Of a DNA stretch of 43,489 nt, positions 31,405 to 43,489 are shown piece after piece. This DNA comes from Microcaldota archaeon. Lineage in GTDB: Archaea > Micrarchaeota > Micrarchaeia > Micrarchaeales > Micrarchaeaceae. Below the pieces are notes generated by a model. It did not search any database and was not told where the DNA came from. It saw only the letters and a program-made list of their open reading frames with translations. The DNA is taken from positions 1 through 43,489 of the forward strand of contig JAKAUR010000017.1 in NCBI GenBank assembly GCA_021827665.1, in the 5' to 3' direction. The translations under genes were made by a program, and so were the position numbers. Within the stretch, counting starts at the first letter, position 1. Each line of letters starts with the position of its first letter.

Positions 31405-31998
31405 ATGCACGGAAAGGAGCCCAAGGACGAGAACTTCGGTTTTTTTACCTCAAGGCTTTACAGGGTCTTCTCCAACACGTTCCCAAGCATGAAAAAGTTC
31501 TACTCCTTCATACTTTCGGACATGTCGAATTACAGGTTCTCCTCGGTGCTTGACATAGGCTGCGGTCCTGGAATCCTAGACGCAAAAATTGCGCAGACGT
31601 TTCCCAAAGCCAAAATATACGGGATAGACCCATCAAAGGACATGGTGAAGCAGGCTTCTGCATTGGCCAAGCGCGCCGGCCTCGCTAACCTCAAATTCTC
31701 GATGGGCAAAAATACTGAAATACCTTTCGAGATTAAATTCGACTTGGTTATAACAACGCTGTCATTCCACCACTGGGCAGTAAAGCAAAAGGCCTTGGAG
31801 TACATAGCGGGGCATATCGCCGATGGAGGCAAAATAGCAATATACGAATTCCTCAAGCCGGAGAAGGGGATGGGCATTTCGGGAAGCCATTCCCTTAGCG
31901 TAAGAGAAGCGAACACATACTCAAATATCTCCGGGCTAAAGCTTGCAAGCGTGGCAACTGAAAAGGGCTTCATAAAGCTAATTCTGGAGAAGGCTTAG
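31405..31998 (+). CDS. Class I SAM-dependent methyltransferase
   Basis: The 197-residue protein has motif I VLDIGCGPGILDAKIA, motif II-like YGIDPSKDMVKQA and the post-motif LVITTLSFHHWAVKQ, typical of small-molecule or UbiE-like methyltransferases. The substrate is not evident. ATG 31405 follows the cysS stop by 2 nt; an in-frame ATG at 31381 inside cysS is possible but would add only eight residues. The last three bases overlap the stop of the convergent aglB gene. Confidence 0.82.
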   Translation: MHGKEPKDENFGFFTSRLYRVFSNTFPSMKKFYSFILSDMSNYRFSSVLDIGCGPGILDAKIAQTFPKAKIYGIDPSKDMVKQASALAKRAGLANLKFSMGKNTEIPFEIKFDLVITTLSFHHWAVKQKALEYIAGHIADGGKIAIYEFLKPEKGMGISGSHSLSVREANTYSNISGLKLASVATEKGFIKLILEKA

Positions 31999-34364
31999 GA
32001 AGTCGAATTCGCATAGCTTATCTTGAATATCCTGCTGTCCGAGTTCTGGTAAACGAGTTTCATGCTTACGCCGGTTCCGTCACTATAACTGCAGTTGGTC
32101 TCGGAGCATCCGTAAAGGAACTTGAACAGGTTGCTCATCGTGAAGTTTTGGCCGACCAAAGCCGCGCTCGTTATATTGTGCCCCGAATATGTCATCAAGA
32201 ACGTATAATTAGCTGCAGGTCCGGTCACGTTGTGTTCTATGTAAGTGTCATTCAAAGTATCATATAAGATGGTGTGCCTTAAGACTGTATACCTTCCATT
32301 GCTGCCAAGCCCTGTTTCTACATCGTTAGGGTTGGAAAGATTTAGGAGCATGACGCTGCTTAGGCCGCTGCCTCCCTGCGCTACGAAGAACAGCCTTTCG
32401 AAAGTGCTGTTGCTCGTCTCGTTAACGCTGCTGAACGCGTCATATCCGTATGTGGCGGCTATGGTGTTGCTAAGGTTGCCCTCAGTGGCTATGCCCCCTA
32501 GCTCCTGAAGCCAATAATACCGCGCCAGAAGGTATTCTGGTCTGTGCGTTTCGTTTACAAGGTAATTCGTGTCAGGCGTGGTGTTAAATATAAATCTGGA
32601 GAAGCCGGCTATCAGCTTTGGGTTCTGACCGCCAACGCTGTCCATGGCGCTCGTCCTGTTAGCCCATCCCTCTATGACGGAGCCGTCGGGCCACACTGCA
32701 AGGAAGGTTGCGTTGCTCGGGGTATTGTTCCTTACCCATGTCAGCGCGGAAAGGAAATTGGCATTTATCCCGTCAGCCTGCACTGATGTGAAGGACTCGA
32801 GGTTTGTCAGATAGAGCATGTATATGAGTATGAATATGGTGACGGCGGCAAACACCAGCCTCCCGTATGTTGCGATTTCCTTCTTCGCGTTCTTCAGGAC
32901 ATTCTTGTCGAATCCCAGGAGCCTGCCTATCGCGTAAAGCCCGTACGCCGCAAATATCGCCATAGGCACTGCAACTATGGAATTGAATCTCACTGCATTG
33001 ATCTGCAGGTAGAAAGTCGCAACGAAATAAGCCAGCATTACCAAGAATTCAGGCGAGAACTTGAGCCTGTGCAGCGTTGTATATTTCTGTCCTGGATGTA
33101 TCCTGTCGGCAAAGAGCAGGTAAAGGATTATGCCAACAGGAGCAAGGAAGAGCTGATAAGCAAAGCTTGCCCAAAGGAACGCAAATGTGGGCGGCTGCAG
33201 CTCCTGTATCGTCGTGTCTAAGTGGCTGCTCGCTATAACGAGCCCGCCGCCGCTAGCAACCTGCGCCAGGAATCCCCCGAAGAATGCGAAGATTATGATC
33301 AGGGCAACTACTACAATCCCGGCAACGAACTTAGCCCTTGCCTCCGTGTTCATGGTAAACGACGGGAACCTGTTCCTTTCACGTATAAGGTAATAGGCGA
33401 GAAGTGTGCCCATTATCACAGGTCCGTAAAATACGAAGAAGTGCAGGCTCGACAGCGCCTGAGTCCCTCTTATTACGGTGAGCGCCATCCACATATGCTG
33501 CATGGCGTAAGTCAGCAGCAGAGCAAAGGCGAGTATAACCGAATCCTTGAGCAGTTGTAGGTCTGCAGTAAGGTAGCCAAGCACTGTTATGAAGATTACC
33601 GCAAGCATGTAAACTATCACTGCGAACGGCGCTCCGTTCCACACTGCCGTCCCGACGCCGAGCACGAAAGCGGCAAGCACCGCGGCCAGGATTTTTCTTT
33701 TTAAGTTTTTCTGCCTGAAAACTGCTATGAAAAATATGAGCGAGAGTATCACGAACGACGTTATGAAACCGTCGCCCCTATACACCAATGCGGCTGTTCT
33801 GGCTATGTCCCCGCTTGATACTGCCACTAAGAACAGGGCCAGAAATCCCAGGACTCTGCTTTTGGCGAAATACTTCACAATGTAGTATGCACCTATCGCG
33901 TCCAAGATCCCGAAGAGTATCGGAACCAGCCTCATCACTGTGTAATAGCTTGCGCCGAAATACCTCAGTATCGCATACGGGAAAAGTGTGACGAAATAAA
34001 GCCCCAAAGGTTCAGTAATCTGGAAATGTGCTGGAAATCCCGAAAGCACCAACGTCTTCGGAACTGCAAAATTATGTGCGGCTGCGGCCCTTATGACTGA
34101 GAAATGGTAAAAGCCGTCAGGCTCGAAGAACCCGGCGTACTTGAGCATGCCGGTCCTGAGGTATATGTCTAGCATTATTATGATTATGAAAAGGGCTATG
34201 GCAGCATAGCCATATTTGCTTATGGCTAACTTTGCACTTTTGCCGTTGCTTGCGTTGGCGTTATGCCCTGCGGAAGAGTCTGAGCCAGCGCCGGAACCGA
34301 CATGCTGTACGCTCTCATTATGCTTCTCCGCAATTCCTGCTTGTGCTCCCTGTTCAGAATCCAT
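31995..34364 (-). CDS. aglB: AglB/STT3-like oligosaccharyltransferase with a divergent WWDYG motif
   Basis: The predicted 789-residue membrane enzyme would transfer glycans to Asn-x-Ser/Thr of exported proteins. A low-complexity cytoplasmic N-tail of about 55 residues is followed by 11-13 transmembrane helices. The first acidic motif is FFEPDGFYHFSV, the second is YRGDGF, and the external loop motif TIQELQPP matches the AglB TIxE element. In the soluble C-terminal domain the sequon-binding WWDYG motif is represented by VWPDGSVIEGWANRTSAMDS, so the Asp and Gly remain but Trp-Trp and Tyr are changed. A TTG at 34394 is an alternative start with a TATA-like ATTAAAAAAG about 28 nt upstream. It is divergent from a sequon-rich surface protein operon. 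Confidence 0.8.
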   Translation of the reverse strand: MDSEQGAQAGIAEKHNESVQHVGSGAGSDSSAGHNANASNGKSAKLAISKYGYAAIALFIIIIMLDIYLRTGMLKYAGFFEPDGFYHFSVIRAAAAHNFAVPKTLVLSGFPAHFQITEPLGLYFVTLFPYAILRYFGASYYTVMRLVPILFGILDAIGAYYIVKYFAKSRVLGFLALFLVAVSSGDIARTAALVYRGDGFITSFVILSLIFFIAVFRQKNLKRKILAAVLAAFVLGVGTAVWNGAPFAVIVYMLAVIFITVLGYLTADLQLLKDSVILAFALLLTYAMQHMWMALTVIRGTQALSSLHFFVFYGPVIMGTLLAYYLIRERNRFPSFTMNTEARAKFVAGIVVVALIIIFAFFGGFLAQVASGGGLVIASSHLDTTIQELQPPTFAFLWASFAYQLFLAPVGIILYLLFADRIHPGQKYTTLHRLKFSPEFLVMLAYFVATFYLQINAVRFNSIVAVPMAIFAAYGLYAIGRLLGFDKNVLKNAKKEIATYGRLVFAAVTIFILIYMLYLTNLESFTSVQADGINANFLSALTWVRNNTPSNATFLAVWPDGSVIEGWANRTSAMDSVGGQNPKLIAGFSRFIFNTTPDTNYLVNETHRPEYLLARYYWLQELGGIATEGNLSNTIAATYGYDAFSSVNETSNSTFERLFFVAQGGSGLSSVMLLNLSNPNDVETGLGSNGRYTVLRHTILYDTLNDTYIEHNVTGPAANYTFLMTYSGHNITSAALVGQNFTMSNLFKFLYGCSETNCSYSDGTGVSMKLVYQNSDSRIFKISYANSTS

Positions 34365-34394
34365 AAACAGACCAAACCCGCAAACGAAAATCAA

Positions 34395-34564
34395 GTCAAT
34401 AAAACCTTTTTGTTATGAACTTTTTTAATGCTTATCCCAACACGCATCGCATCTGGCTTAAAATGCACGACAGCCATTGCGACAAAGAGAATAAAAATGC
34501 TAATAAACATATCTAGCAAATATATCATACAGAACCGATGCCTCGATCAATGCCTGGAGATACT
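34395..34564. promoter_or_regulatory. Divergent promoter region between aglB and the surface-protein operon
   Basis: This 170-nt AT-rich spacer contains TATA candidates toward aglB (ATTAAAAAAG on the minus strand, about 34417-34427) and toward the operon (CTAATAAACATA near 34500-34511 and AATATATCAT near 34518-34528). In-frame ATG codons at 34538 and 34550 offer longer starts for the plus-strand gene. Confidence 0.45.
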
Positions 34565-36586
34565 ATGAATACAAAAAAATACAAGGCTATGGCCTTAGAC
34601 TCGCTGTTCGCACTTATAATCATCGCATCTTTCTCCCCCTATTCAAATGCTAATACTGTTAAGGTCAATGCCTCGATAAATGCCGTGTGCCAGTTCGCCC
34701 TGTACAACACGCATTCCGTTGCTTACCCTCTGCTTTCCAATATTTCGGTAAGCTTTGCATCCCAGGACCTTGCAAACTGCTCGATAGCCAGCATGCCTGG
34801 CATCATGACTGTTTTCTACCCTAACGGCACCAAAGCGTTGAACTTCAGCTCGGTATTCTACAATTTCACGAACCTGCAAGCCCAGCGCGATTTTCCCGCC
34901 TCTTTCAACGGCCTAAAACAGGGCAATTACACGGCAAACATAACCATGGAAGAAACATCGAGCTATAAAAATTCCACTACAATGTCCCTTGTACTTCTAA
35001 ATCCTCCGAACGTCATCGCTAGCAACATGATAATAGGAAACGTAAGCTACGGCTCGCCGCTTCCTGTTTCACTGAACCTCCACAACAACGGCTCCCTGGC
35101 ATCCAACACGATTACGCTCTACATAAGGATAAACGGCACAGCCTCATTCAACAGGAGCTATGTCCTGAGCTCCATGGCTCCCAACCAGACATTCCCTGTA
35201 GTGCTGTCGCTGAGCAACGTAACCAGCACTCCGGGTTCATACAATATATATGCGTATGCTGGCTTCAGCGCATACGGTAGGGCATTTCTGTCAAACATGG
35301 TCCGGGCGAACTACACCGTGCCATCTCCTCCTTCAAGTTCGACAATACCTTCGAACAGGACTGCTACGCCAATAGTCAAGTCACCTTATGTCGAGATAAC
35401 TACGGTGCCAATATACTCCTTAATACCTTACGGTACTTCAGCAGTCTCGTCGCTGGGCCTGAAGGACATAATAACCCAGCCTGAAACCGTCACGCTAAGC
35501 ATAAACAGTTCGTACTCCAACCTGATGAGCGTTTCAGCCACGTCGCTTCTGCTCAAGCCTAACCAGACTGAGCTCGTGCAGGTATACGCAAACGGAAAGT
35601 CGAACAAACCTGGCAGCTATATAGTTCCAATAGACATAAACGCAACACTGGCTAACGGAACATCTTCGTTGCAGACAGAATACATATCATTCACGGTCTA
35701 CAACAAGACAAACTCCACTGCCTCAATAAACTACAACGTAGCGCTCCAAAACGACACCACATCCGCACTTGGAACGGTCACGGTTTCCGGTGCTGCCAAT
35801 GCAAGTCTGAAAAACACCACGCTGCTCACCATAATACCTGAGGCAGAGGTTTCTTCGGCCAACGACATAAATGCCTACGGGCTACCCAACAGGCTAGAAG
35901 TCGTCAACAACTCCTACTACATAATATGGAACATAAGCAGCATACCTGCATCCAAGCAGGTCATAGTCTATTATTCGATAAAGAACCCGAAAAGCCAGTC
36001 CCTTCTAAGCGACATACAGAACATACTATACTCCCCGTCCTCCGTATCGTTCCTTAAGCTTTTCAAGATAACAAGCCTGTCCCTTCCCACGCTATTCACA
36101 AACTCCTACGGATTGGTCAATGTTTCCGCAATATACACCGGAATACTTCCCAGCACTGTTTCGCTCTATCTTGTAAGCTCTTCAGGTCTCAAGGCCCTCA
36201 ACGCCTCATACAGCCAGGGTATGGTGCCAAACCAGCAGGTCTTTCACTCTTTCAAAGTGGAGTCCGGATCGGTATCCGGGACATATCTGCTGTACCTGTA
36301 TGCATCCGCTGCGGGCATAAACTACAATTATACGCTGCCGCTGCTGGTTGAAAAGCTTGTGCCCTCAACCACTGTGCTTACAACGGTACCTCCAACTCCT
36401 GTGCTGGAAAGAAACATATACGCCTATTCTGCCTATGCCGCCGCAGCGATAATATCCATAGCAATAGCCACATACGTCGCATATAAATATAAAAACAAAC
36501 CCAGATACAATCCGAAAGTGGCCAAGGAACTTGTCGAAATAACAAAGAAGGAGCGTTCAAGGAAGGGCGGAGGTGCTTCAAAATGA
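34565..36586 (+). CDS. Membrane-anchored surface glycoprotein of unknown function
   Basis: The 673-residue protein has a signal peptide (MNTKKYKAMALDSLFALIII and ending near SNA). A long extracellular part follows, built of Ser/Thr/Asn-rich beta domains, one of which (about residues 170-240) resembles a CARDB-type module. Near the C-terminus there is one membrane helix (YAAAAIISIAIATYVAY) and a basic cytoplasmic tail of about 35 residues. Asn-x-Ser/Thr sequons are abundant, consistent with glycosylation by the neighbouring AglB. Starts at 34538 or 34550 are also in frame. The stop overlaps the MinD-like gene start (ATGA), so the two are translationally coupled; the basic tail could touch that ATPase. 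Confidence 0.75.
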   Translation: MNTKKYKAMALDSLFALIIIASFSPYSNANTVKVNASINAVCQFALYNTHSVAYPLLSNISVSFASQDLANCSIASMPGIMTVFYPNGTKALNFSSVFYNFTNLQAQRDFPASFNGLKQGNYTANITMEETSSYKNSTTMSLVLLNPPNVIASNMIIGNVSYGSPLPVSLNLHNNGSLASNTITLYIRINGTASFNRSYVLSSMAPNQTFPVVLSLSNVTSTPGSYNIYAYAGFSAYGRAFLSNMVRANYTVPSPPSSSTIPSNRTATPIVKSPYVEITTVPIYSLIPYGTSAVSSLGLKDIITQPETVTLSINSSYSNLMSVSATSLLLKPNQTELVQVYANGKSNKPGSYIVPIDINATLANGTSSLQTEYISFTVYNKTNSTASINYNVALQNDTTSALGTVTVSGAANASLKNTTLLTIIPEAEVSSANDINAYGLPNRLEVVNNSYYIIWNISSIPASKQVIVYYSIKNPKSQSLLSDIQNILYSPSSVSFLKLFKITSLSLPTLFTNSYGLVNVSAIYTGILPSTVSLYLVSSSGLKALNASYSQGMVPNQQVFHSFKVESGSVSGTYLLYLYASAAGINYNYTLPLLVEKLVPSTTVLTTVPPTPVLERNIYAYSAYAAAAIISIAIATYVAYKYKNKPRYNPKVAKELVEITKKERSRKGGGASK

Positions 36587-37329
36587 CCAAAACATTGAGC
36601 ATAATTGTGGCTTCAATAAAGGGTGGAGTGGGAAAGACCACGGTAGCAGTCAATCTTGCGGTAACGCTAAGCATAGCAGGATACAAGACCCTGCTCTACG
36701 AAATGGACACCGTAAATCCCGGGGTGGGCTACCATCTTGGCAAACTTGACGAGGAATCCCATGTCCAGACATACAAACCTACCGGTCTTCAATACGTTTC
36801 GGCGCATGTATCCGAATCTTACGACGCTCCGGATGCGGAGCGAGCCTCTCAGCTTGAATCAGAGATTAAAAAGGGAGACTATGATTTTGTCATAGTGGAC
36901 ACTCAATCAGCTGACAAGTCCCTGTTAAAGAAGCACTTTGACAGTGGTCTGATAATCATAAATCCGGACGAGCAGTCGTGCGCTGCTGGCATAATGGCCA
37001 AAGATCTTATCGAATCTTCAGGGGCCAAATGCAACATAATGCTTAACATGGGGTTTGAGAAGCCCTACGCGCTGAGCGACAAGGAGATAGAAGAGATGTT
37101 TGGCACTCCGATAATGGCAAGGGCCGAAGAAGATCTTTCTCTGCGCAAGAGCCTGCTGGAACATGTGCCAAACATTCTTACCGAAAACGCTCCGAAGTTC
37201 AGCGCCCAGATAAGCAAACTGGCAAGGGTATACGCTGCGATGATTGACGAGGATTATGCTCAAAAATTCGAAAATTTCAGCAGGGAACTAGGAAGGGCGA
37301 AATCCGAAATCAAAAAATTACAGCAATAA
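36583..37329 (+). CDS. MinD/ParA-family ATPase
   Basis: The 248-residue P-loop protein has the deviant Walker A KGGVGKTT (residues 13-20; both signature lysines K13 and K18 present), a switch region with DTVNPGVGYHLGK and the Walker B-type strand YDFVIVDTQSAD. The C-terminus is helical and charged (SRELGRAKSEIKKLQ) and could be a weak membrane-targeting helix or coiled coil. Family members position proteins, chromosomes or surface machines through ATP-driven dimerisation. It is enclosed by two surface-protein genes, overlapping the first by four bases and ending 13 nt before the second. That points to a role in assembling or placing the surface structure rather than in chromosome partition. 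Confidence 0.85.
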   Translation: MTKTLSIIVASIKGGVGKTTVAVNLAVTLSIAGYKTLLYEMDTVNPGVGYHLGKLDEESHVQTYKPTGLQYVSAHVSESYDAPDAERASQLESEIKKGDYDFVIVDTQSADKSLLKKHFDSGLIIINPDEQSCAAGIMAKDLIESSGAKCNIMLNMGFEKPYALSDKEIEEMFGTPIMARAEEDLSLRKSLLEHVPNILTENAPKFSAQISKLARVYAAMIDEDYAQKFENFSRELGRAKSEIKKLQQ

Positions 37330-37342
37330 ATCACTTGGTCAA

Positions 37343-40300
37343 ATGGGAAGCGAAACAGCCAAAGCATATGCAGGTTCTGCAAGGAAGCCGCTAAGGCAGC
37401 AAAGTGCCATGGAGTTTATCATGACATATGGCTGGGCGATACTTCTGATAGCTATAGTGCTTGGAGCGCTATACGCCGTCGGGCTTTTCAGGCCCAGCGT
37501 GCCCACGATGTGCCTGCCTAATTCTGGATACCTTTGCGAATCCCCGATAATGAACACAAGCGGCTACGTTGCCGTCAAGTTCGGCACTGTCAATCAGCAG
37601 AACATAGTAATAACCGGTCTAGGATGTTCGAACGGCGACGTTGTGCCGTCAAACATAAGCTTAACTAACCTTCCAGTTTCTTCTGGTCAGGTAAAGGCCC
37701 TAGTTTTCAAATGCCCAGTACAGGCGCACTCCATAAATTCTCACTTCACAGGCACGCTCTGGCTGCAGTATACTGCGGCTGGGATACCGGGACAGCTGGG
37801 CGAAATCGGGACCCTCAGCGCAGCGGAAAGCACCCCTAACATAGTCGCCACCGCCTTCGTAAGTTCTAATTCCACTTCGACAAGCACCAGCACGACTTCA
37901 ACCAGCACTTCCACAACTACCACTTCCACGTCTACAACGTCAACATCTACGACTACTTCCACTTCTACTATACCATACGTGCCTGTAATACTCAAAAATT
38001 CGCAGGCGTCCAACACTCCGGCACCGTTCCAGCAGATGGTTTCAATAAACAGCAGCACTTATTCAAAGTACATTTATTCCGGTTGGTCAAACGTCGAATT
38101 TACAACAGGCCCGGCAGCTACTGGCAACACGATAGACGCTTGGATAGAAAGCAATGCGACAAACTCTTCCAAAAACACTGTGGTGTGGCTCAAGCTGCCA
38201 TCCGGCATACCTGCAAACAGTCTCAGCGTCCTATACATGGATTTTATGCCGAGTAATGTGCTCTCGTCCAACGGCCCGACTGGCGAAGCACCTCAGCTCA
38301 GCCCGACCTACGCGCAATACGACGACGGCGCGAACGTGTTCACGAACTATTGGAACTTCGCAGGGACAACCCTGCCGAGCGGACTGACCGCAGGCTCAAC
38401 CATTACTGCAACAGTAAATAACGGTATCACAATCAGCGGAGGAACAGGCACAGATACGGATGCAGTTACTACCTCTTCTTTGACTGTATCTCCTCCATTC
38501 ATCGTCGAGGCGTACGGAACTATCCCAACCTCTTCATTCAGTTGGGCAGTCGGAGCATCTGATATAGCTGGAAGCAATACTAAAGGCGCCAGCGGATTTA
38601 GTGGACTGGCCGGAACCGGAACAATAGAAGCAGGACAATCAACCACCACTGCATTCACGATTGGAGGAAACTTCGGAAAATCCAGCACGACCGGGATATG
38701 GACTACCGAAGCAACATCTACTTCATCATCTACGTTCTATTTAAATTACGGAAGTGCATTTACAGAGCCAAGCGATGCACCGACATATCCTGCTTATTTA
38801 TCGCTTGTTTACTTTGATGACGGTGCTACTTTGAGCTATAATTGGCTCCGCACCCGCGCATATCCGCCCAACGGCGTCATGCCAAACGTGAGTTTCTGGG
38901 TTCAGGATGGCGCCCCGTACTTGAAACTGCAAAACAACACGATAACCTATGCCTCCTCTAACGACATAATCACGGCAAGGGCTCTTTTCTCAAGCACAAG
39001 CATAGAGTTGCTCAGGAACGGCACCGTCATAGCTTCCGGCACGGGCAACGTTTCGTATGTTCTGAATTCCAATTCCGTCTCAACATGGCCGGCAGGAAAG
39101 TACAACATAACCGCGTACGAGCCCGGGGCAGGAGTCCCTAATAGTTCGGAAAATCTGACAATAGGCAAGGCAAAGCCCGTATTGACGATAAGCACGAATA
39201 ACCAAACAAAAGTAAGCATGAGCGGCGTCGGCAATTACATAATATCTTATTCTGTAAATTCCATAAACAACCAGCTCGAAGCGTACTTGTCAATTAACGG
39301 GATAAACGTCTCATCTACGAACTCGTTAAGCACCTATTCGCTTAACATATCGAACACTACGGAGTTCTACGCATACACGCCAGGCAACACCAACTACACA
39401 CAGCTAGCGCTCAACAAGACCTCAATATACATAGTAAGGTATCCCTACTACGTGCCTATAACGATATACAACAACCAGACGAGCAACACCCCCGCGCCCT
39501 TCCAGCAGCCAATAACCATGAACCTGTCAAAATATGCCAGCCTTGTTTCTCCAAATCTAAGCAACGTATTCTTCTTCTACGAAAACAAAACCATAATACC
39601 TTCATGGCAGGAGAACGGCGCATCAGGGGTAACATTCAACGGATCATCGGGATACATGGTGCAGGAGAAGGGGTATCAGTGGATGAACAACGCGGCCCAG
39701 CACTTCACGCTCTCAATATGGGTTAACCCTTCATCGCCGAACGGCGTAATAATAGACGAGCTTAACCAGAGCGATAGCTGGCACGACGCCTGGCTAGATT
39801 TGGTGAACGGAAACGTATACATGAGAATTTGGGGTCTGGGGTGCGTGAACCTCGGGCCAATACCTGACGGACAATGGAGCAACATAGCAATGGAATACAA
39901 TGGCTCCACGTATTCTGGCTACATTAACGGGAACTTTTCAGGCTCAGGCACGGGAACCCGTTCTGTTCCTGGGGGTTCATACACATTATCTTATGCCCTT
40001 GGAAAGAACGACACGACAAACTGCGGTTCAAGCTCAGCATTCTACGGATCCATGCTGAACTACCAGATATACAACAAAACCCTTCAGCCAAGCGGAATAA
40101 AAAGCATATACTCCAACGGCATATACGGCGAACCACCATTCAACGCTTCGGAAGGGCTGAGCGGATGGTGGCAGCTTGAATACAATTCCAGCGCAGGGGA
40201 GGGCAACGACGGCCTTTCCTACGAAGACGTCAATTTCACTAGCTCGCATGTGCTTTACTGGCTGAAGCTCGCAAACGGGATAAAAGCAAACGGCAATCTC

Positions 40301-43300
40301 ACGATATACATGGGCATCGCGAATAAAAGTTCGATGCTGCTCAACGATAAAAATATCGGCGAAGCCCCTCAGCTCTCTCCCGCATACGCAGAATACGACG
40401 ACGGCGCTAGCGTGTTCAACAACTACTGGAACTTTGCAGGGACAAGCCTGCCGAGCGGGCTTAATTCGCTTTTAAATGGCAGCTCGGTTTCATCCGATGA
40501 CGGCCTTACTCTCTCAGTCCCGAGCACTACAGGGGATTATGCCGATGCCTATTTCACAAATGCCATAATCGATCCCCAAAATTATTATCTGGAAGCGTAT
40601 GTTCCAAGCTATGTTGCCTCGTTGGGTCTTTATGCGGGCGTCGCCTGGAGTCCCACAAAGCCTTCGACAAGTTCAGATTATTACGGGCTAAGCAATACGA
40701 CGGGATATACGGAAACTAACGATGTGCCTGTCGGAGCACAAATATACCAGGTTTCAAGCGGTTCATATATCAGCGGAAACACAATACCCAACCCAAGAGC
40801 ACCATACATAATATCTCTACACGCTGGATCATCGGCACAGTCCGGATTGTTCAATTATGAAATTAAAAACACATCTTCATACTCTTTCAATGCTCCTTCC
40901 GCCTATATAACGTTGCCGTATATAGTCCAGGGCACGTATAGCGCGATAAGCCCAGCAGCCACCTACACCTGGCTCCGCACCCGCGCATATCCGCCCAACG
41001 GGGTGATGCCCGCATACGCAACAGGCCAGATATATTCTCCAGGAGCACCAGAACTAACAATAAATAAATCTTCGATACAATACGGGCAGACTGACGGTAT
41101 AACCGCGTCATCGCAGATAAGCGGGGACGAAGTAGAGCTTTCGATAAACGGCAACGTTGTCGCAGGCCCGACTAAAAATTCCCTGACTTACCTATTCCCG
41201 GTAATTACCGCAGGCGCATATTCGATAAACGCCATAAACATAAACAACTCCAAGTACACATCCGCACAAATTTTGGTAAATAAAGCAGTTCCTGCAATAT
41301 ATACGCCAAAAAGCGGGTTCTACTCCAATCCGCTGAATTTCACGTATTCGATATCAACCGTAGGCAACCAGCTGACAGGCAAACTATATCTTAACGGCAC
41401 TGAAATATCATCGACAAATTCTGCTAATTCGCTGGTGCTGTCTGGGGTAGGCACAACATACTCTCTATTGTTCAACGTCTCTGGAAACGCCAATTACACA
41501 AGTGCAACAACGGGGCAGATAACCGTGCGCCTCAAAAGCCCAAGCAGTCCTTACAAAATACCTTCTGGGGTTTACTACTATGCTCCAGTTTACATACACA
41601 ACAACCAGACTGTCCCCACAATCTCACAGCCACAGGAATACCTCCAGATAAACGCTAGCGCGTTCGCCAATTACCTAACATATAACTACAGCAATGCAAA
41701 TTTTGAATTCTTCTACGGAAACGGCACCCATGTGCCTGGCTGGATAACTAGCAATTTTTCCGGCCGCATAGGCATATGGCTGAAGCTACTGAAAAGCATA
41801 CCTGCAGAATCGAACACTACATTGTATATTGGCTTCGCAAACAAGACAACCAATCTTCTATCAAACACAGGAACATCTGGCATCGGCGAAGCCCCTCAGC
41901 TCAGCCAGACCTACGCGCAATACGACGACGGAGCCAGCGTCTTCCAGGCGTACTTCAACGCAGACACTCCTCTTTCCGACTTCGCCATAGAAGGGGGCTA
42001 TGGCGTAACCAAAGTATCTACGCAATGCGACCCTACATTAAACTGCAGATCAGGGACTGTTTATCTACTAGAAGTCACTGGCTCGGGCACCAGGTCCTTC
42101 GACATGGCTTACAGCACTGCATTTCCCGACAACGCAACATTGGTGCTTGGCTCCAACATAGGGACAGATCTTACTGACGAAGGCTATGTCGGCCTTGGTG
42201 CGGCGTCAATGGCCTCGAATCCACCAGGCATAGACACGGCAGCCGGAAACGGCAATTCCATAGGCGGCACTTGGCTGCAGAACGGGGGTTTCGGCTACTT
42301 TTCAGGGTCATCGTCAAGTCTGCCTCCGAATTACCTGTATTACGAGATGAGCTATGTTCCGGGAGCCCCAAATGTGGTAGCTTCAATATACGGCCAAAAC
42401 GTGTCCGAGAACGGAGCCGATTATATACCTTCAGGCTATGCTCCGGGGCTTTACATAGGGGTAGGAAGCGCAACCGAGAACATAAATGAGCTCGACTATA
42501 CGAGCTGGCAAGCAGCAGCACAGTCTACAAGTACAGGGGTATTCCCTTCTGCCATCGTCTTGCAGAACCCTAAGCCTTCGGGATCCATACAAATTTTCAT
42601 AAACGGGAAGAGCCAAAACACCACGCTCAATTATTCTGTGGTAAACATTACCGCGTCTCTGCAGTCCGCTGTATATTCCAACGACATTGTAGATCTGCTG
42701 CTGAATGGAAATACTCTGTGCACTGGTACTTTCTCCTGCACGTACACGGGCTACATAGCGGCATCAAAGAGTGCATACAATATAACTGCAGAGAACGTCA
42801 ACGTGTCGTCAAGGCAATCGTTGAGCCTTAAGGTTAACAAGGCGATTCCGGAAATAAGCGCAACCGCGCCTTATTCCGACATAAACAACGGCACAATATA
42901 CTACTCTGCAAGTGCCGTAAACGCGCAGCTGAAGGCCTACCTGTATGTCAACGGGGTAGAAGTCGCCAATACCATAGGTGCGTCAAGCTACTCTATAACC
43001 GGCATAGGCAACTACAGCTTCTACGCATACACGCCCGGCGACGCCAATTACACCAATCTCACAACGGCTACAAAAACTCTGCACATACTGCGCTCTCCTA
43101 AGTTCTACATACCCATACTTATAACCAACAGCCAGACGAGCAACACCCCAGCGCCGTTCCAGCAGGAGATCACGTTCAACAGCCTCGCGTACAAATATGC
43201 AGAAGCCGGCAACCTCGACAACATTATGTTCTTCTACTCCAACGGAACTGCGGTGCCTTCATGGCTTGAAGCCGGAGCCAGCAATACTAGTGCGAACACC

Positions 43301-43489
43301 ATATATTGGCTAAACATAAGCCGCGGCATCCCTGCACAAGGCTCAATAAAAGTATACATGGGTATATTCGCGCAGAACATAAGCACATTTAACAACATAT
43401 CGACTGGAGAGGCTGCGCAGCTGTCCACTCCCTACGGCAAATACGACAATATTGCCCACATAATGAACAAAGGCCTGCTTTACCAGATA
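37343..43489 (+). CDS. Giant pilin-signal surface protein with repeated DUF2341 and Ig-like domains (partial, 3' end outside the window)
   Basis: The frame is open from ATG 37343 to the window end, 2,049 codons, with no stop codon seen. Residues 18-48 (RQQSAMEFIMTYGWAILL and on) match a class III/type IV pilin-like signal, with Glu five residues after the likely cleavage point. A Cys-containing domain follows (to about 170), then a Ser/Thr-only linker (about 174-208). After it come repeated units, each a DUF2341 domain (opening with YVPVILKNSQASNTPAPFQQ in unit 1) followed by two Ig-like domains. Units start near codons at 37976, 39449, 41573 and 43106; the last is cut off. Most DUF2341 copies hold an inserted LamG/concanavalin-like sandwich and GEAPQLSxxYAxYDDG. 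Sequons are abundant. It is probably the main product of this operon, a filament subunit or adhesin. Confidence 0.88.
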   Translation, partial: MGSETAKAYAGSARKPLRQQSAMEFIMTYGWAILLIAIVLGALYAVGLFRPSVPTMCLPNSGYLCESPIMNTSGYVAVKFGTVNQQNIVITGLGCSNGDVVPSNISLTNLPVSSGQVKALVFKCPVQAHSINSHFTGTLWLQYTAAGIPGQLGEIGTLSAAESTPNIVATAFVSSNSTSTSTSTTSTSTSTTTTSTSTTSTSTTTSTSTIPYVPVILKNSQASNTPAPFQQMVSINSSTYSKYIYSGWSNVEFTTGPAATGNTIDAWIESNATNSSKNTVVWLKLPSGIPANSLSVLYMDFMPSNVLSSNGPTGEAPQLSPTYAQYDDGANVFTNYWNFAGTTLPSGLTAGSTITATVNNGITISGGTGTDTDAVTTSSLTVSPPFIVEAYGTIPTSSFSWAVGASDIAGSNTKGASGFSGLAGTGTIEAGQSTTTAFTIGGNFGKSSTTGIWTTEATSTSSSTFYLNYGSAFTEPSDAPTYPAYLSLVYFDDGATLSYNWLRTRAYPPNGVMPNVSFWVQDGAPYLKLQNNTITYASSNDIITARALFSSTSIELLRNGTVIASGTGNVSYVLNSNSVSTWPAGKYNITAYEPGAGVPNSSENLTIGKAKPVLTISTNNQTKVSMSGVGNYIISYSVNSINNQLEAYLSINGINVSSTNSLSTYSLNISNTTEFYAYTPGNTNYTQLALNKTSIYIVRYPYYVPITIYNNQTSNTPAPFQQPITMNLSKYASLVSPNLSNVFFFYENKTIIPSWQENGASGVTFNGSSGYMVQEKGYQWMNNAAQHFTLSIWVNPSSPNGVIIDELNQSDSWHDAWLDLVNGNVYMRIWGLGCVNLGPIPDGQWSNIAMEYNGSTYSGYINGNFSGSGTGTRSVPGGSYTLSYALGKNDTTNCGSSSAFYGSMLNYQIYNKTLQPSGIKSIYSNGIYGEPPFNASEGLSGWWQLEYNSSAGEGNDGLSYEDVNFTSSHVLYWLKLANGIKANGNLTIYMGIANKSSMLLNDKNIGEAPQLSPAYAEYDDGASVFNNYWNFAGTSLPSGLNSLLNGSSVSSDDGLTLSVPSTTGDYADAYFTNAIIDPQNYYLEAYVPSYVASLGLYAGVAWSPTKPSTSSDYYGLSNTTGYTETNDVPVGAQIYQVSSGSYISGNTIPNPRAPYIISLHAGSSAQSGLFNYEIKNTSSYSFNAPSAYITLPYIVQGTYSAISPAATYTWLRTRAYPPNGVMPAYATGQIYSPGAPELTINKSSIQYGQTDGITASSQISGDEVELSINGNVVAGPTKNSLTYLFPVITAGAYSINAININNSKYTSAQILVNKAVPAIYTPKSGFYSNPLNFTYSISTVGNQLTGKLYLNGTEISSTNSANSLVLSGVGTTYSLLFNVSGNANYTSATTGQITVRLKSPSSPYKIPSGVYYYAPVYIHNNQTVPTISQPQEYLQINASAFANYLTYNYSNANFEFFYGNGTHVPGWITSNFSGRIGIWLKLLKSIPAESNTTLYIGFANKTTNLLSNTGTSGIGEAPQLSQTYAQYDDGASVFQAYFNADTPLSDFAIEGGYGVTKVSTQCDPTLNCRSGTVYLLEVTGSGTRSFDMAYSTAFPDNATLVLGSNIGTDLTDEGYVGLGAASMASNPPGIDTAAGNGNSIGGTWLQNGGFGYFSGSSSSLPPNYLYYEMSYVPGAPNVVASIYGQNVSENGADYIPSGYAPGLYIGVGSATENINELDYTSWQAAAQSTSTGVFPSAIVLQNPKPSGSIQIFINGKSQNTTLNYSVVNITASLQSAVYSNDIVDLLLNGNTLCTGTFSCTYTGYIAASKSAYNITAENVNVSSRQSLSLKVNKAIPEISATAPYSDINNGTIYYSASAVNAQLKAYLYVNGVEVANTIGASSYSITGIGNYSFYAYTPGDANYTNLTTATKTLHILRSPKFYIPILITNSQTSNTPAPFQQEITFNSLAYKYAEAGNLDNIMFFYSNGTAVPSWLEAGASNTSANTIYWLNISRGIPAQGSIKVYMGIFAQNISTFNNISTGEAAQLSTPYGKYDNIAHIMNKGLLYQI
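37861..37968 (+). repeat. Ser/Thr-only linker coding region
   Basis: About 36 codons encode almost only Ser and Thr in short irregular STST/TTST runs, between the N-terminal domain and the first DUF2341 unit of the giant protein. Such mucin-like stretches are usually rigid, extended and O-glycosylated spacers. The repeated codons make it a likely site of length change by slippage. Confidence 0.85.
38282..38383 (+). repeat. GEAPQL-YDDG-YWNFAG coding repeat, unit 1
   Basis: This stretch encodes GEAPQLSPTYAQYDDG followed by the YWNFAGT segment. Closely similar DNA starts at 40358 (unit 2) and 41885 (unit 3), and a more diverged copy at 43406 (unit 4). Long runs of identical codons between copies 1, 2 and 3 suggest recent duplication or gene conversion. 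Confidence 0.8.
38843..38874 (+). repeat. 32-bp exact repeat, copy 1 (end of DUF2341 unit 1)
   Basis: Encodes the WLRTRAYPPNG segment. The identical 32 bp recur at 40970-41001 in unit 2, with no synonymous changes even though the flanking domains differ clearly. Confidence 0.9.
39449..41572 (+). repeat. Second DUF2341 + double-Ig unit, with LamG-like insertion
   Basis: This 2.1-kb unit of the giant gene starts with YYVPITIYNNQTSNTPAPFQ. It includes an extra LamG/concanavalin-like domain (FTLSIWVNPSS to SGWWQLE, about 39690-40175) and ends with two Ig-like domains before the next unit. It is longer than units 1 (1.47 kb) and 3 (1.53 kb), mostly because of that insertion. Confidence 0.75.
40970..41001 (+). 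repeat. 32-bp exact repeat, copy 2 (end of DUF2341 unit 2)
   Basis: Identical to 38843-38874 at the DNA level. It encodes the same WLRTRAYPPNG segment, just before the Ig-like pair of unit 2. Confidence 0.9.

Follow-up and report, generated by a model that had tools for sequence, protein, structure and literature searches.

A giant Micrarchaeota protein that joins a type IV pilin-like head to a long arm of lectin-like and Ig-like modules

Results and Discussion

The giant gene and its operon

The window, that is, the whole stretch of DNA analyzed, is one entire contig of 43,489 bp from a genome of 40 contigs and 852 kb. On its + strand, a frame of 2,049 open codons runs from position 37343 to the last base at 43489. 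Because the window is a complete contig and the frame is still open at its end, the encoded protein (hereafter the giant) is truncated at 2,049 residues. Two full-length orthologs with the same head are found in the same genus, of 5,094 aa (genome G002) and 5,074 aa (G003), and the ortholog in G004 is a fragment of 1,125 codons. The true length of the giant is therefore put at ~5,100 aa; judging from the orthologs, which add ~3,000 residues past the contig end, the full protein would be about 2.5 times as long as its visible portion. The original prediction of a protein exceeding 2,000 residues agrees with the visible codons and is far surpassed in the full orthologs. That the giant is an artefact of a misread start or a chimeric assembly, as the contig end that cuts the window copy might suggest, is extremely improbable, since the identical fusion is found in four genomes, including a single 989,838-bp contig (G002), and the leader is conserved among orthologs. 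Chimeric assembly in particular is ruled out by the orthologs. Our literature search, which covered open-licence papers, found none on giant pilins in Micrarchaeota.

A gene for a 248-aa MinD/ParA-like ATPase (36583..37329, + strand) ends 13 bp upstream of the giant, with synteny in G002, G003, G004 and G007, and the two genes probably belong to one operon. The first gene of this operon is probably 34538..36586 (+), whose 682-aa product is secreted, matches CARDB weakly and has a TM at its C-terminus. The divergent neighbor (31995..34394, −) encodes an STT3/AglB-type oligosaccharyl transferase and is syntenic in G002, G003 and G004. The order AglB-type gene, CARDB-like gene, MinD-like gene, giant is kept in three orthologous loci. 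STT3-like proteins were also recognized by eye at loci L213, L217 and L218.

The N-terminal signal and the pilin head

The giant starts with the leader MGSETAKAYAGSARKPLRQ (residues 1–19, 37343..37399, +), which is kept in the orthologs, and continues as QSAMEFIMTYGWAILLIAIVLGALYAVGLF, the presumed cleavage falling between the two, before Q20. The leader is short and hydrophilic, with Arg at −2 (R18) and Gln at −1; its last residues, LRQ, are followed by QSAMEF. A class III-type hydrophobic helix (residues 20–49, 37400..37489, +; model residues 2–29) begins at Q20 (+1) and has E24 at +5, and within the portion of the giant covered by the window, the sole stretch with a 19-residue mean KD above 1.5 starts at residue 31. 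Gln at +1 and Glu at +5 mark EppA-type pilins (PMC4371748), and both Q20 and E24 are invariant in an alignment of 67 heads.

The class III signal that had been predicted here stood in its +1 Gln, its +5 Glu and its hydrophobic helix, but the match to the canonical motif is imperfect: Gly, Ala or Ser at −1 has been stated as a requirement (PMC4371748), and the giant has Gln there, as do three orthologs and L043. Pfam's model of the class III signal, PF04021, gave no match to the giant's head in the genome search. An oddity of the giant alone is ruled out, however. Among 138 distinct family heads from the fetched loci, the −1 residue is Ala in 75, Leu in 23, Ser in 21, Gly in 9, Gln in 7, Met in 2 and Ile in 1, while −2 is Lys or Arg nearly without exception. 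With Leu, Gln, Met or Ile at −1 in 33 of these 138 heads, rule-based class III predictors requiring Gly, Ala or Ser would miss many Micrarchaeota heads. A class III-like protein within the T4P operon of contig C28, with GIRL before and QSSIEF after the presumed site, is likewise off-consensus at −1. The Gln in the orthologs and the common departures in the family suggest a tolerant prepilin peptidase. The −1 Gln is the main doubt about the pilin reading; the giant is therefore not filed here as a proven pilin, and our claim is that it works like a modular pilin.

The helix is followed by a globular (beta-sandwich) domain with Cys57 and Cys65 (residues 50–176, 37490..37870, +), delimited from the alignment of 67 heads and an AlphaFold model, and then by a Ser/Thr linker (residues 177–209, 37871..37969, +) that is 100% identical to three orthologs at aligned positions. 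Both the Cys domain and the Ser/Thr spacer of the original prediction are thereby located. Besides the +1 Gln and +5 Glu, a Thr, a Tyr, a Trp, an Ala and both Cys are invariant in the 67 heads. No Pfam family covers these heads, and their profile retrieved no sequence from the PDB. With the 38-residue head as query, nine other ORFs were recovered from the giant's genome (E 5.9e-13 to 1.1e-5), of which two lie at contig edges, while three further ORFs match more weakly; these counts of class III proteins come from searches of the genome. Such heads are contained in all 60 genomes searched, and the complete members among the 138 distinct heads are mostly 150–200 aa, the ordinary size of a pilin. 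The globular head is 90.6–94.5% identical to the three orthologs, versus 53–82% for the longer arm segments. This higher identity, the nine other ORFs and the occurrence in 60 of 60 genomes indicate that the head signal is not due to chance.

The AlphaFold model of the head (pLDDT 80.7) consists of one long helix (2–29) and eight strands, that is, a helix and a beta-rich globular domain. Its best two matches among 350,542 PDB chains are the AAP pilin of Sulfolobus acidocaldarius (8q30) and the archaeal T4P of P. calidifontis (8fk7), both at probability 1.00, with TM ~0.4, E ~1e-3 and other beta sandwiches scoring close behind; with these TM and E values, the structural likeness is a loose one, to be read at the level of fold only, and this counts against the modular-pilin reading. 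The two pilins resemble the giant in predicted head fold, but they are stand-alone, armless and short, with PDB chains of 141 and 136 residues. The earlier idea of a pilin-like base carrying a very long extracellular arm is well supported, and this base goes beyond a mere signal to form an entire pilin module.

Architecture of the arm

In the window, the arm consists of DUF2341/lectin-like modules and Ig-like repeats, all on the + strand. Module 1 (residues 212–516, 37976..38890), detected with Pfam PF10102 and an internal profile, precedes an Ig-like repeat region (residues 525–700, 38915..39442). Module 2 (residues 703–1225, 39449..41017) is split by an inserted LamG domain (Pfam PF13385, E 3.3e-13; residues 785–919, 39695..40099) and is followed by an Ig-like pair (residues 1236–1389, 41048..41509), module 3 (residues 1413–1737, 41579..42553), another Ig-like pair (residues 1756–1903, 42608..43051) and module 4 (residues 1922–2049, 43106..43489), which is truncated by the contig end. 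Apart from LamG, these later elements were all delimited with the internal profile.

The full arm, as seen in G003 and G002, has ~4,900 residues. It comprises seven DUF2341/lectin-like modules of ~310 residues each, one of them split by LamG, and ~26 Ig-like repeats of ~82 residues each, 15 of which form an unbroken run; the C-terminal ~120 residues form a domain that contains two Cys. Outside the head, the full-length orthologs have no TM-grade stretch except one borderline window in G003, and no C-terminal TM. Asn-X-Ser/Thr sequons number 205 and 208 in two full-length orthologs versus 110–113 in shuffles. A modular pilin is built of a pilin module, a linker and non-T4P domains, and the linker, LamG, DUF2341 and Ig-like repeats of the giant conform to this plan. 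A solute-binding domain of the bindosome kind was not found in a Pfam scan of the window part.

Phylogeny of the head

In a quick tree of the heads, computed without bootstrap from non-independent rows after removal of three long-branch rows, the giant's head falls within a clade of 23 rows (SH-aLRT 99). Every member of this clade is at least 262 aa long, and 66 of the 87 rows outside it are shorter than 250 aa. Kelch, Gly-rich and DUF2341 domains are the passengers in some members. By sequence, the giant's head belongs to a subfamily of carrier pilins. Multi-DUF2341 proteins with pilin-type heads also occur in other genera (L243, 1,551 aa mature; L238, at least 1,962 aa), and since a first tree placed them apart from the giant, the construction of a pilin head with several DUF2341 modules probably arose repeatedly. 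The other long DUF2341 proteins examined have mostly ordinary N-termini.

Two further sets of pilin-headed proteins were seen. In the same genome as the giant, locus L029:444-3284 (G000:C23) spans 947 codons for a class III-type protein (KGQIALEFLIVYS...) that matches LamG three times, and this predicted product is a second long modular pilin-like protein of the genome. The region G015:C1:581304-603704 holds more than 12 closely similar pilin-headed ORFs of ~290–312 aa, the size class of head-plus-LamG proteins.

Sister operons and the C-terminal domain

The CARDB-like gene is present in 29 of 60 genomes. In the loci read, the CARDB-MinD pair commonly precedes a large secreted adhesin, which has an ordinary signal peptide and a C-terminal domain with the last residues IENSC, as well as small proteins consisting of this IENSC-ending domain. 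In G002, two such adhesin copies (frames of 1,792 and 1,809 codons) exist besides the giant. The ordinary signal peptides of adhesins encoded in other copies of the operon count against a modular pilin. The C-terminal ~120 aa of the giant are homologous to the adhesin domain, which ends ...IYFGLxIPGGTPAGTYxQTITIENSC; the domain gave only chance-level matches in a PDB sequence search, and within the aligned set the giant's version diverges most, sharing 26% identity with the first row. The giant carries this domain in divergent form, so that in its lineage a pilin head occupies the place that a signal peptide has in the sister operons.

The homology to adhesins in the same operon position would also fit a secretory adhesin that has merely taken over the pilin head as an export signal and whose arm is held via the shared C-terminal domain. 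Against this speak the hydrophobic helix and pilin domain that the giant has retained, the divergence of its C-terminal domain, the furthest of the set, and the lack of a C-terminal TM in the full-length orthologs, so that we consider this explanation quite improbable.

Prepilin peptidase and type IV pilus machinery

The genome is not without a candidate prepilin peptidase, whose absence would have told against the original prediction, and it also encodes T4P ATPases and platform proteins. The peptidase candidate, encoded on C21, is a FlaK/PibD-like membrane protein of 293 aa whose putative catalytic residues, Asp22 and Asp81, are invariant in 28 homologs. Its family has one copy in each of the 31 genomes at least 90% complete. 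Its Pfam A24 score lies below the cut-off. Among structures, the only credible match to its model (pLDDT 90.3) is the FlaK protease 3s0x (probability 1.00, E 0.049), so that the product is predicted to combine two catalytic Asp with a FlaK-like membrane fold. T4P-type ATPases score above the cut-off on C23, C14 and C28; the one on C23 is accompanied by two T2SSF platform proteins, and C28 carries a second operon with an ATPase and small class III-like proteins. The related Mia14 genome is reported to have two T4P systems and one FlaK-like peptidase, as well as an expansion of LamG proteins, some of which are tied to T4P loci (PMC5498576).

The location of the giant's gene in a CARDB-MinD-adhesin operon, outside the T4P operons, counts against a modular pilin. 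It would be expected of a membrane-anchored giant stalk, whose pilin head, cleaved or uncleaved, anchors the arm and never enters a filament, as in bindosome subunits. The departure of the −1 Gln from the consensus (PMC4371748) and the use of class III signals by archaeal substrate-binding proteins (PMC4371748, PMC4858521) point the same way. So does the frequency of pilus-free display in the adhesin and DUF2341 families, where the adhesins of sister operons are exported on an ordinary signal peptide and a TM at the C-terminus occurs in other long DUF2341 proteins. For a bare anchor, however, an entire pilin globular domain would be superfluous, yet this domain is better conserved than the arm; Glu5 is retained, and the head lies in the carrier-pilin subfamily. 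A pure anchor is thus conceivable but rather unlikely.

On balance we lean toward a (minor) modular pilin composed of a type IV pilin module, a Ser/Thr linker and an adhesive arm. The class III signal would put such a modular pilin into the membrane, and the FlaK/PibD-like peptidase would cut off the leader just ahead of Q20. Through the T4P ATPase and platform proteins, the head could then be built in as a rare (minor) subunit, either at the tip of a pilus or along its length. The arm may be glycosylated, in favor of which we count the sequon excess and the adjoining AglB-type gene. With an estimated length of ~100–150 nm (at ~4 nm per Ig repeat), it could reach glycans of a partner cell or matrix. 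The source archaeon is tiny and probably symbiotic, and holding a partner cell is probably the role of the arm. We offer more tentatively the specific picture of a single 5,100-residue polypeptide that is polymerized as a T4P minor subunit and whose ~100-nm lectin/Ig arm lets a DPANN symbiont grip its Thermoplasmatales host. To our knowledge, the means by which DPANN symbionts grip their hosts are largely unknown, and the conserved, pilin-headed giant is a concrete single-gene candidate for this function. The related Ca. Micrarchaeum sp. A_DKE grows in co-culture with its host; cryo-ET of these co-cultures has revealed filaments between the cells, for which the authors favor a host origin (PMC8975820).

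Comparison with known systems

With over 1,200 proteins, modular pilins are an established idea in bacteria; the extreme case among those named has 860 residues (PMC8179133), and the known grafts include LamG/concanavalin-type lectins (PF13385) (PMC8179133, PMC9934059). By its architecture, the giant is an extreme new version of the modular pilin, a kind known in bacteria. By analogy, it can be compared to PilB and PilC of Streptococcus sanguinis, which also have an N-terminal pilin module and a grafted module, adhesive in the bacterial proteins (PMC8179133, PMC9934059). In contrast to these, the giant is archaeal, has ~5,100 aa versus 454 aa in processed PilB and 860 aa in the largest multi-domain protein named, and carries dozens of modules rather than one or few. 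The idea of modular pilins, surveyed in bacteria, is thereby extended to archaea, and the largest named example is exceeded about six-fold.

Among archaeal systems, clade 1 T4P loci encode large DUF2341 proteins (arCOG03508), likened to PilY1, along with FleN/MinD ATPases (PMC4858521). The giant is similar to these adhesins in its DUF2341 modules, large size, nearby MinD/FleN-type ATPase and proposed pilus-borne adhesion (PMC4858521). However, the arCOG03508 adhesins are described as separate proteins, whereas the giant carries its arm in covalent linkage to a pilin head and has no T4P ATPase in its operon. The bindosome proteins of Sulfolobus are likewise archaeal and have a large ectodomain on a pilin-like signal or anchor (PMC4371748, PMC4858521), but they are substrate-binding, whereas in the giant a full pilin domain is combined with modules of adhesin type.

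Recurring operons in Micrarchaeota

The operon of a CARDB-like TM protein, a MinD-like ATPase and two kinds of secreted product, a large adhesin and small proteins, recurs in Micrarchaeota (window positions 34538-37329; L208, L209, L211, L213, L215, L216, L217, L218, L080 and L110). The ~120-aa domain shared by its adhesins and small proteins, with two Cys and the ending ...YxQTITIENSC, matched no Pfam family. The small proteins, which consist of this single domain, could be the building blocks of a surface layer or fibre that has yet to be described. At G059:C5:8570-10177, a CARDB-like match lies inside an open frame of 5,658 codons, which is another giant surface-protein candidate.
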